Translations under genes and position numbers: made by a program
In this document: piece by piece, positions 55,127 to 59,917 of the stretch
Numbering within the stretch: the first letter of the stretch is position 1
Layout: each line of letters opens with the position of its first letter
The notes under the pieces: model-generated
What the model was told of the DNA's origin: nothing
The model's input: the letters and a program-made list of their open reading frames with translations, nothing else
Databases searched by the model: none
NCBI GenBank assembly: GCA_902586435.1
Contig: CACIHJ010000003.1
Span: forward strand, 1 to 64,000
Reading direction: 5' to 3'
DNA length: 64,000 nt
DNA from: an uncultured Bacteroidota bacterium
GTDB lineage: Bacteria; Bacteroidota; Bacteroidia; Flavobacteriales; Flavobacteriaceae

Positions 55127-55144
55127 TAAAATATTATAAATTTG
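55127..55144 (+). promoter_or_regulatory. Putative tRNA promoter block taaaatattataaatttg (-7 TAAATTTG at 55137-55144)
   Basis: TAnnTTTG match 7 nt upstream of tRNA-Gly; 18-mer identical to 13997-14014. Confidence 0.5.
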
Positions 55145-55151
55145 CATTCGC

Positions 55152-55223
55152 GCGAAAGTAGCTCAGGGGTAGAGCATCACCTTGCCAAGGTGAGGGTCGC
55201 GGGTTCAAATCCCGTCTTTCGCT
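55152..55223 (+). tRNA. tRNA-Gly (anticodon GCC)
   Basis: Acceptor GCGAAAG/CTTTCGC, anticodon arm TCACC-TTGCCAA-GGTGA, T arm CGGGTTCAAATCCCG. Confidence 0.95.
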
Positions 55224-55228
55224 CAATT

Positions 55229-55314
55229 GCTCGAGTGGTGGAATTGGTAGACACGTTGGACTTAAAATCCAATGAACAGCAATGTTCGTGCGGGTTCAAG
55301 TCCCGCCTCGAGTA
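55229..55314 (+). tRNA. tRNA-Leu (anticodon TAA)
   Basis: Acceptor GCTCGAG/CTCGAGT, anticodon arm TTGGA-CTTAAAA-TCCAA, T arm GCGGGTTCAAGTCCCGC, long variable arm. Confidence 0.95.
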
Positions 55315-55317
55315 CAG

Positions 55318-55345
55318 AAAAGCCTCCTTTTAGGGGGCTTTTTTT
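55318..55345 (+). terminator. Rho-independent terminator after the tRNA pair
   Basis: AAAAGCCTCC-TTTTA-GGGGGCTTTT stem-loop with T run. Confidence 0.85.
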
Positions 55346-55867: not shown

Positions 55868-56857
55868 CTATTTGTTAGTTGTTAAAATTTTTTTTACAAT
55901 TTCTCCAGAGTTGTCTTTATAATTAATATGTAATACTGTTGGAGAATTAATCCATTCTTTTATTTTTTCAATATAATTTAATGAGAATTCTTTTAATATT
56001 TGAATTCCTTCCTTTTCAAGAGCTGCTGCATTAAATTGCTGCTCTATTTGAGCTTTTACAGGTATTACAAGCATTGGTTTTCCTAAAAAAATTGCTTCAG
56101 ATGTTAAAGAGAATCCTCCAGCGCAAATTATTCCATAACATGAAGCTATCTTTTTTGTAAATAGATTATCAGAAATAGAATTGATACTTATCCCCTCTAA
56201 ATTATAATCAGAATTACTTTCATTTGTAAAGATTGTCCATTTCATTTTAACAGGTATCTCTTTAATTATATTGATAATATTATTTATCGAATATGTAGGC
56301 AAATAAATTAATATCTCATTACTAGTTGAAGTATTAATCTCTCTAATTCTGTCTCTAATAATTGGATCTAATATATTTTTATTATAGGGTCTGTAATGAT
56401 ATCCATATCCGACTTTCGATGGACAAAAAAGATTTATTGCAGAAAGAACTATTCTGCTATACCTTTTTGGTTTAGGAACATTCTTTGAATTAAGTACATA
56501 TTGATTACTTAATGCCACGCATTTAACTCCTCTTAGTATACAAGCCCATGCTGAAATTGGTTCATAATCACTTACTACTAAATCATAATTTTTTACAGGA
56601 GAATTAAATATATCAACTAAAAATTGAAAATAGTTGTTATAAAAAATTGTTTTAATCCAATTGATTGATCCAGATTTGGATGTAAAAAATTTAAAACCTT
56701 GGTAATGCTTTATAGGGGTTTTGTATGTTGGAAAATTATTAGAAGGTCCACTGGTTAATATATCTACTCTTGCCTTTTTAATAAATTCGGGGACTAGTTT
56801 TTGAGCACGAGAAAGATGACCATTTCCTTGTGTTTGAATAGCATATAAAATTTTCAT
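55868..56857 (-). CDS. Glycosyltransferase (MurG/GT28-like)
   Basis: MKILYAIQTQGNGHLSRAQKLVPEF, CYGIICAGGFSLTSEAIFLGKPMLVIPVKAQIEQQFNAAALEKEG. Confidence 0.82.
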   Translation of the reverse strand: MKILYAIQTQGNGHLSRAQKLVPEFIKKARVDILTSGPSNNFPTYKTPIKHYQGFKFFTSKSGSINWIKTIFYNNYFQFLVDIFNSPVKNYDLVVSDYEPISAWACILRGVKCVALSNQYVLNSKNVPKPKRYSRIVLSAINLFCPSKVGYGYHYRPYNKNILDPIIRDRIREINTSTSNEILIYLPTYSINNIINIIKEIPVKMKWTIFTNESNSDYNLEGISINSISDNLFTKKIASCYGIICAGGFSLTSEAIFLGKPMLVIPVKAQIEQQFNAAALEKEGIQILKEFSLNYIEKIKEWINSPTVLHINYKDNSGEIVKKILTTNK

Positions 56858-56901
56858 TTTTATTTAAAAAATATAAGATAGAAAATTAAGATAGTATTAA
56901 A

Positions 56902-57156
56902 TTATAAGGTCTCAATATATTCATGGAACGATTTTCCATAAACTTTTTTAAAATTTGCCTCAAAGCTCCTTTTAGAATTGAATCCACAAAGTACCCATAT
57001 CTTTTCAATTGACTGTGGGTCTTTCTTTACTAAAGATTTAGCAAGAGTTATTGCATAATTAACCTTGGAACGATTTATTTTTAGATTAACGTTTTCGATA
57101 TTAATTGGTTTTAGCGAGCTAAATATATGATAAAAAGTAATTAGTTCGACAAAAAA
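56902..57156 (-). pseudogene. AraC-family HTH domain fragment (no canonical start codon; not in ORF track)
   Basis: Open frame reads ...NRSKVNYAITLAKSLVKKDPQSIEKIWVLCGFNSKRSFEANFKKVYGKSFHEYIETL*, matching the second half of an AraC HTH. Confidence 0.7.
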
Positions 57157-57161
57157 CTAAA

Positions 57162-57532: not shown

Positions 57533-59917
57533 ATGAGTTATAAAATAAAAAAAGTTGCAGTTTTAGGATCAGGTGTTATGGGATCTGGAATTGCATGTCA
57601 TTTGGCCAATGTAGGGATTGATGTTCTGATGCTAGATATAGTTCCAAAAAATTTAGAGAAAGGTAAAAGTAGGAATATGGTTGCTGATGAATCTCTTTCT
57701 AGAGTTGTCAAATCAAAACCTAATCCTATCTATAACAAAGAATTCTTAAAAAGAATTAAAACAGGAAATTTTGATGATGATTTTGAAAAGATTTCATCAA
57801 CAGATTGGATTATTGAGGTTGTAGTTGAGAACCTAGAGATTAAAAAACAGATTTTTGAAAAAGTAGAAAAATATAAATCTAAGGATTCATTTGTTAGCTC
57901 TAACACTTCAAGTATTCCTATAAACTTATTATGTGAAGGCAGATCTAAAGATTTTAAGAAAAACTTTTGTGGAACACATTTTTTTAATCCTGCAAGATAC
58001 ATGAGGTTGCTTGAAATTATTCCTCAAACTGAAACTGATTCAAAATTAGTTGAATTTCTAATGGAGTTTGGAGATATAACTCTTGGAAAACAAACAGTTT
58101 TATGTAAAGACACTCCTGCTTTTATTGCTAACAGAATTGGAATTATGGCTGGTATAAAATTGCTTCAGTTAACTGATAAATATGATTTTACTATTGAGGA
58201 AGTTGATTTAATGACAGGTTCAGTTATTGGATATCCAAGCTCAGGTACATTTAGATTACAAGATCTTGTAGGTCTAGATACAAGTGAGAAGGTTACAAAA
58301 TTTCTAGTTGATACTGTTAAAGATGATTCATTCTATAGTACCCTAAAAGATCAACCTGAGAATAAAGCTTTTAGATTTTTAATTGATAATAATTTTCTTG
58401 GAAATAAGTCAGGTAAGGGGTATTACGAAAAAACAAATAAAAAAGATGAAAATGGAAAAACGATAATTAACTCATTAGATCTAAAAACTCACCAATATAG
58501 AAAATCAATCAAGCCAGATTTAAAATTAGTTAAAGAGGCAAAATCTATAGAACTTTTTGATAGAAGAATTAAATTTTTGATTGAAGGTGATTCAAATGAA
58601 AATTTATTTTATAGAGAATATTTAGCCTGTCTTTTATCCTATTCTGCGATGAGTATTCCTGAAATAGCAGATGATTATTACCAAATTGATGATGCAGGGA
58701 GAACAGGATATGCATGGACATATGGTCCTTTTGAGCTATGGGATAATTTAGGACTTGAAAATGGAATAAAGCTTTTAGAATCTTGTGATGAAAAAATTCC
58801 TAAATGGATCCATGAAATGAAAAAAAATGGAGGTGATGTATTCTATAAGTTCGAAGATGGTAAAAGAAAATATTTTGATGTAAAATCTAAAAAATATGTA
58901 ACCGTTCCAAGTTCGGAATCATTTATAATCCTAGATGCATTTAGATCAAATAATATTTTTAAAAATTCAGAATGTACTCTACATGATATAGGAGATGGTG
59001 TGATTTGTATCGAATTTCAGAGTAAAGCAGGAGCTATTGGTTCAGGAATAGGGGATGGAATAAATAAAGCAATTGATATAGCGGAGAGTGATGGTTGGAA
59101 GGGAATTGTTATAGGACATAATAATAAGCAGTTTTCTGTTGGTGCTAACATAATGAACATGGGTATGGCAGCTATGCAGAAAAAGTATGATGAAGTTGAA
59201 AAATTTCTAGTAGGATTTCAAAATATTTTGATGAAAATGAAAACTTCTAAGGTCCCCATTGTAGCTTCTACTCAGGGATTTGTATTGGGTGGTGGTCTGG
59301 AAGTAGTAATTCATTGTGATGCAGGGATATTTGCTTCCGAGTCATATATAGGACTTCCTGAAGCAGGAATAGGATTACTTCCGGCAGGAGGAGGTACAAA
59401 AGAGATGGCAATGAGAGCATCTAATTCATTTAAAACAGGAGATGTGAAAATGCCAACATTAATAGAACATTTCAGGTCTATTGCTACAGCTACAGTTGCA
59501 ACATCTGCTCATGAGGCATTTGATATTAATTATCTTCAAGCTACAAGAGATACTGTGTGCATGAACCAAATGAGAAATATAGCAATGGCTAAAGAAAAAG
59601 CATTACAATTATCGGTAGGATATATTCCTCCATCTTTAAACCAACATGTTGAGGTTCTTGGTAGAGCAGGTCTTTCAACTCTTTACTCTGCAATTAATGA
59701 GTTTAAGTTAGGAGGCTACATGTCAGATTATGATGTCGAGGTATCAAGAAAAATAGCTTATGTTATATGTGGTGGAGATTTAACAAGTTCTCAACTTGTA
59801 AGTGAAGAATATTTATTTGACCTTGAAAGAGAAAACTTTATGAGTCTTCTAGGTAATCAAAAAACTTTGGATAGAATCCAATACATGCTAATGAATAAAA
59901 AACCTTTAAGAAATTAA
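57533..59917 (+). CDS. 3-hydroxyacyl-CoA dehydrogenase/enoyl-CoA hydratase fusion (FadB/FadJ-like)
   Basis: VAVLGSGVMGSGIACHLANVG, FCGTHFFNPARYMRLLEII, enoyl-CoA hydratase region GFVLGGGLEVVIHCDAGIFASESYIGLPEAGIGLLPAGGG. Confidence 0.94.
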   Translation: MSYKIKKVAVLGSGVMGSGIACHLANVGIDVLMLDIVPKNLEKGKSRNMVADESLSRVVKSKPNPIYNKEFLKRIKTGNFDDDFEKISSTDWIIEVVVENLEIKKQIFEKVEKYKSKDSFVSSNTSSIPINLLCEGRSKDFKKNFCGTHFFNPARYMRLLEIIPQTETDSKLVEFLMEFGDITLGKQTVLCKDTPAFIANRIGIMAGIKLLQLTDKYDFTIEEVDLMTGSVIGYPSSGTFRLQDLVGLDTSEKVTKFLVDTVKDDSFYSTLKDQPENKAFRFLIDNNFLGNKSGKGYYEKTNKKDENGKTIINSLDLKTHQYRKSIKPDLKLVKEAKSIELFDRRIKFLIEGDSNENLFYREYLACLLSYSAMSIPEIADDYYQIDDAGRTGYAWTYGPFELWDNLGLENGIKLLESCDEKIPKWIHEMKKNGGDVFYKFEDGKRKYFDVKSKKYVTVPSSESFIILDAFRSNNIFKNSECTLHDIGDGVICIEFQSKAGAIGSGIGDGINKAIDIAESDGWKGIVIGHNNKQFSVGANIMNMGMAAMQKKYDEVEKFLVGFQNILMKMKTSKVPIVASTQGFVLGGGLEVVIHCDAGIFASESYIGLPEAGIGLLPAGGGTKEMAMRASNSFKTGDVKMPTLIEHFRSIATATVATSAHEAFDINYLQATRDTVCMNQMRNIAMAKEKALQLSVGYIPPSLNQHVEVLGRAGLSTLYSAINEFKLGGYMSDYDVEVSRKIAYVICGGDLTSSQLVSEEYLFDLERENFMSLLGNQKTLDRIQYMLMNKKPLRN

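Follow-up and report, generated by a model that had tools for sequence, protein, structure and literature searches.

The minus strand of the window, i.e., the whole stretch of 64,000 nucleotides from an uncultured Flavobacteriaceae genome analyzed here, bears a short open frame between the genes of an SCP2-type sterol-carrier-like protein and of an MJ1255-type glycosyltransferase. A gene of the 3-hydroxyacyl-CoA dehydrogenase type, named by sequence resemblance rather than by profile search, diverges from the SCP2 gene (Table 1). The open frame runs from 57156 to 56902, comprises 84 codons plus a stop, directly follows an in-frame TAG at 57159–57157 and translates as FFVELITFYHIFSSLKPINIENVNLKINRSKVNYAITLAKSLVKKDPQSIEKIWVLCGFNSKRSFEANFKKVYGKSFHEYIETL. 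None of its 84 codons is ATG, GTG or TTG (referred to as NTG in the following)—an observation of an earlier note on this DNA whose coordinates and codon content we could confirm. Judged by the codon frequencies of the neighboring genes, ~7% of true coding stretches of such a length are expected to lack NTG, so that this absence is by itself only mildly unusual. The frame portion 5' of about 57111 probably remains untranslated, since relatives carry stops there or just before the core; the predicted gene within the frame is termed mini-AraC here.

The stretch between the mini-gene and the glycosyltransferase gene (56858–56901) lacks a metallophosphatase-like gene of ~284 aa that is present at this place in other genomes of the genus. 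Searched with its N-terminal half, the window's genome yields nothing at E≤0.001, and G007 yields a weak match at best (E=1e-4). Further along, the ORF translation at 55142–55333 (SSGVEHHLAKVRVAGSNPVFRS..., ARVVELVDTLDLKSNEQQ...) resembles tRNA genes read as protein.

Table 1. Features at and around the mini-AraC locus of the window
Feature	Position	Strand	Basis and remarks
MJ1255-type glycosyltransferase, 3' neighbor	55868..56857	-	Pfam Glyco_trans_1_3 E=5.5e-34; NCBIfam MJ1255 below cut-off
Whole open frame as first reported	56902..57156	-	Relatives: stops 5' of or just before core
Predicted mini-AraC gene	56902..57099	-	65 codons + stop, ATC 57099-57097 to TAA 56904-56902; start inferred
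Candidate start codon ATC	57097..57099	-	ATC in 16/19 genomes (16/17 with Ile there)
Alternative start codon ATT	57103..57105	-	Directly after AACCA; GTG or ATG there in 9 relatives
AACCA motif	57106..57110	-	Invariant in 19/19 aligned genomes; upstream alignment
TATATTTA, -7-like promoter box (Bacteroidota TAnnTTTG)	57120..57127	-	Resemblance; candidate promoter
TTTG, -33-like element	57150..57153	-	22 nt before -7-like box
SCP2-type sterol-carrier-like protein, 97 aa	57162..57455	-	Pfam SCP2 E=1e-16; 5' neighbor in 19/19 genomes
3-Hydroxyacyl-CoA dehydrogenase type gene, divergent from SCP2	57533..59917	+	ORF list, conserved synteny

The frame had been proposed to encode the C-terminal half of an AraC DNA-binding domain, and profile searches bear this identity out with significant E-values at scores just under the curated cut-offs: residues 36–81 match positions 33–78 of 80 of Pfam HTH_18 (PF12833; E=4.3e-6, 27.4 bits, curated cut-off 33.6 bits) as well as Pfam HTH_AraC (PF00165; E=1.3e-5, 25.6 bits, curated cut-off 26.6 bits), with the scores of the relatives being lower still. 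The two helix–turn–helix (HTH) units of the AraC/XylS architecture are not found; all members bear the linker helix and the second HTH alone. The missing sensor domain and first HTH, which the earlier note had pointed out for the window, are hence missing in every member of the family, and the short form is for this reason taken as the normal form of the gene. An AlphaFold2 model, calculated with 14 relatives in the alignment (pLDDT 91), predicts the fold of an AraC DNA-binding domain. It displays a long helix, a helix–turn–helix and a closing helix (predicted helices 3–24, 29–32, 35–38, 44–55, and 59–65) and begins right at the proposed first residue. The closest PDB structures are domains of the AraC family—3oou (TM 0.76), GadX, ToxT, and MarA—where Foldseek TM values (query) reach up to 0.76 at E-values of 0.26 or worse, which are poor because the chain is so short. 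As the predicted fold resembles AraC-family domains, the mini-protein would represent the linker helix and HTH2 of such a domain, kept alone.

With the AraC/XylS domain, mini-AraC shares the linker helix, the second HTH, and the G-F, F..F, and G..Y signature positions. By contrast, it bears neither a sensor domain nor the first HTH, falls short of the curated cut-offs, carries an invariant Trp in the first helix of its HTH and, in several lineages, does not start with NTG. In the second recognition helix, the positions of the usual AraC Ser and Arg are often acidic or neutral, and these replacements make DNA binding uncertain.

Among 24 further genomes of the window's genus, 18 carry an ortholog (E 4e-29 to 8e-20, 48–62% identity), which places the frame far beyond chance. 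The named carriers are single-cell and metagenome genomes of uncultured marine Bacteroidetes or Flavobacteriaceae. In 19/19 carriers the mini-AraC ORF lies directly after the SCP2 gene, and a core of 66 residues is equal in length in all 19 copies, free of stops and indels. The third codon positions vary most among these copies. Nei–Gojobori pairwise dN/dS values are mostly 0.1 to 0.3, with dS close to saturation in most pairs; they amount to 0.13 between the window and its nearest relative L002 (dS about 1.8), to 0.16 between L018 and L006, which both lack NTG, and to 0.52 for the close pair L006–L009. L006 and L007 stem from separate metagenome-assembled genomes and are mutually consistent. 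Five other genomes of the genus lack mini-AraC with both flanking genes intact; there, the SCP2 gene is followed within about 45 nt by the metallophosphatase gene, an arrangement that we read as clean loss. In a further non-carrier, G003 (a 54% complete genome), no SCP2 match was found.

These data bear on the two alternatives of the earlier note, a decaying remnant or a gene with an odd start. A remnant would be a pseudogene that recently lost its start codon and whose conservation is left from a working past. The absence of NTG from the entire frame agrees with this, and so does the fact that loss does occur—in the five genomes above and in L095 of a second genus, whose copy is frameshifted. 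However, the window copy bears neither an internal stop nor an indel, its dN/dS toward the nearest relative is 0.13 even at a dS of about 1.8, and NTG-less copies occur in at least three separate lineages, all of them intact, where repeated recent decay predicts otherwise. In the second genus, moreover, this single-domain gene comes with ATG or TTG as the start. A remnant is hence unlikely, and of the two alternatives the non-canonical start is the one that gains from the comparison. The intact small ORF in 18 other genomes and its purifying selection strongly support a functional coding gene rather than a pseudogene. A full-length AraC gene at the SCP2–glycosyltransferase junction of related genomes, as considered in the earlier note, did not appear; all relatives have the short form. 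Only 41 to 76 nt separate the SCP2 stop from the mini-gene in the carriers, which leaves no decayed N-terminal part in between. An in-place remnant of a full-length AraC gene was rejected, as the gap between SCP2 and the core is too short to hold one and the gene is equally short in all relatives.

The second genus, g21 of the same family, matches a short homolog in 15 of its 22 genomes, with open frames of 72 to 103 aa. Most of them immediately follow SCP2, and the divergent dehydrogenase gene is again found upstream. Possible starts are ATG in L084–L088, L094, and L097, and TTG in L083 and L089–L092. L096 lacks NTG around its start; at the very position of the L097 ATG, eight codons ahead of GAT CAG, it bears ATA. 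In G448, the copy L095 (1465–1683) is decayed and apparently frameshifted. G445 and G446 (L089 and L090) carry two copies per genome, one of which is found near the metallophosphatase and glycosyltransferase pair and not after SCP2. Searches across the family (400 genomes) and the order (398 genomes) placed the stand-alone short form in these two genera alone; the other matches sit within longer AraC-like frames (at least 300 aa). A weak match in SAR116 (L067) was rejected as a mini-gene since it is the C-terminus of a long AraC-type frame.

Where might translation of mini-AraC start? Five of the 19 carriers have no usable NTG: L001 (the window), L006, L007, L009, and L018, the latter four with TAA immediately before the CCA of the core. 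These copies fall into three or four separate positions of a tree built from dehydrogenase and SCP2 proteins—with the lineage of the window being basal and the inner support in that region weak—so that NTG-less copies are seen in the independent lineages L001, L006/L007, L009, and L018. L006, L009, and L018 have TTGs farther downstream, but starting there would cost them the conserved first helix; the window has no such TTG. As the NTG-less copies offer no usable ATG, GTG or TTG, their initiation, if they are translated, would happen at a non-NTG codon, and a non-canonical start is probable for the window's mini-gene. Thirteen copies of the genus have an NTG available at one of two places: four codons before a conserved Ile (ATG, TTG or GTG; L003, L004, L005, L008, L011, and L012) or directly before it (GTG or ATG; L005, L010, L012–L017, and L019). 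In L002, an ATG is located far upstream, next to unresolved bases.

In the window, the codon of this Ile is ATC, which we regard as the best candidate and, at about even odds, as the actual start. ATC makes up 9.6% of the Ile codons of the neighboring genes, and the two exceptions at this position (TTC and TTA) have GTG or ATG one codon earlier. The invariance of ATC was considered as a proof of start-codon use and loses weight: 16 of 17 against 9.6% is striking, but a tree-aware count gives two third-position changes at the ATC codon, and five of the 42 comparable columns show at most one, so that it is not exceptional. L003, L004, L008, and L011 may truly start at an ATG or TTG that lies in frame four codons ahead of the Ile, in which case they would not need ATC. 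Initiation in F. johnsoniae is favored by adenines at −3 and −6 (PMC6847099); read from the sequence, both are present at the window's ATC, while they are lacking at that of L006. The ATT directly after AACCA is possible as the start instead, and in the copies without GTG or ATG at this place the codon is ATT, GTT or ACT.

A real gene might also start elsewhere, either in another frame with programmed frameshifting or by reinitiation or readthrough after the SCP2 stop. The short distance of 41 to 76 nt to this stop in all relatives would allow for it, and the ORF shares the frame of SCP2 in L010 and L015. However, the frame relative to SCP2 varies among genomes and stops intervene in most of them, for which reasons readthrough was rejected; reinitiation would still need a non-NTG codon; and inspection by eye revealed no conserved slippery site or out-of-frame ATG near the core. 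Taken together, a start elsewhere is quite improbable.

Upstream of the core, AACCA is also kept in the four genomes in which its CCA follows an in-frame stop. The -7-like box lies 17 to 21 nt from the ATC in 14/19 genomes, 11 of which show exactly 19 nt. Box plus upstream TTG or TTTG are found in 15/19 genomes compared with a mean of 2.3 for shuffled sequences, which keep base composition alone and ignore the relatedness of the genomes. In F. psychrophilum, the TAnnTTTG -7 element occupies positions −12 to −5 and the median leader measures 24 nt (PMC9723704). If the box of the window is a promoter, the leader would span about 15 nt, and transcription would begin only downstream of the ATG found in L003, L008, and L011. 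AACCA and the box are conserved where coding is impossible, which could point to an operator or another regulatory element that acts at the DNA or RNA level, with the open frame being incidental. But the core varies by codon pattern while amino acids, frame, and length are kept, and it is predicted to fold (pLDDT 91) and matches a protein family. We hence consider a DNA or RNA element highly improbable for the core.

It is very rare for a bacterial gene to be recognized as starting with ATC, ATT or ATA, and standard gene callers are unable to find such genes. The classic textbook case of a start other than AUG, GUG or UUG is infC, the gene of translation initiation factor IF3, which is autoregulated by IF3. 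In the window's genus, infC has no NTG start either (GTT ATA GCA ATA AGA), so that non-NTG initiation has a precedent in these cells. N-terminal infC frames without ATG, GTG or TTG were seen in G000 (C2:48641–48844; L107) and in L108, L113, L114, L116–L118, and L121–L125, where the start appears to be ATA or a nearby ATT or GTT, e.g., in ATT GTT ATA GCT ATA AGA. Both infC and mini-AraC are conserved genes without an NTG start. They encode unrelated proteins, and the non-canonical start is kept broadly in infC, whereas that of mini-AraC varies among ATG, TTG, GTG, ATA, and none.

Based on conservation, synteny, purifying selection, the NTG absence, and the predicted fold, our best explanation, with a probability of roughly 0.7, is that 57099–56902 on the minus strand is a functional small gene with a non-NTG start, whose ~65 residues form a linker helix plus HTH2 and serve as a scarce accessory regulator; from this evidence, we infer translation, the exact start codon, low expression, DNA binding, and targets. 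Mini-AraC would descend from the C-terminus of an AraC regulator, and the stand-alone gene might have arisen behind SCP2 before, or at the split of, the two Flavobacteriaceae genera. Within the genus of the window, translation is expected to start at or within a few codons of AACCA. In the NTG-less lineages, that of the window included, fMet initiation would most likely take place at ATC (57099–57097) and possibly at ATT two codons earlier. Such a codon is expected to initiate weakly, which would keep the protein scarce. The likely role is that of a low-abundance accessory regulator of the neighborhood of SCP2/fatty-acid oxidation and glycosyltransferase genes. The protein would bind DNA as a dimer, or else compete or pair with a full-length AraC regulator. 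Such an accessory regulator, or partner or competitor of a full-length AraC protein, seems the most likely function. To our knowledge, the AraC negative regulators (ANR) are not themselves HTH_18 fragments. Like mini-AraC, ANR proteins such as Aar are small proteins that possibly act on AraC-type regulators (PMC4038620, PMC5570504), and they are set beside mini-AraC only as an analogy for the model of a competing partner.

More broadly, and only tentatively, mini-AraC might be a conserved single-HTH family of marine Flavobacteriaceae that repeatedly uses non-NTG starts (ATC, ATA, possibly ATT), with a tuned scarcity and a sensitivity to IF3, and that gene finders miss in many genomes. For the window's copy, they would miss it because its start is probably an unusual codon such as ATC. 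Comparative genomics would thereby add, beside infC, a second candidate gene with a non-NTG start in the same genomes of uncultured streamlined ocean bacteria—and a mini-regulator that is cut down to one helix–turn–helix, yet kept under selection. As close relatives carry ATG, GTG or TTG and form a natural series, the evolution and the effect of start-codon strength are directly testable. At least one full-length AraC protein is encoded in the window's genome (C1:14802–15038).
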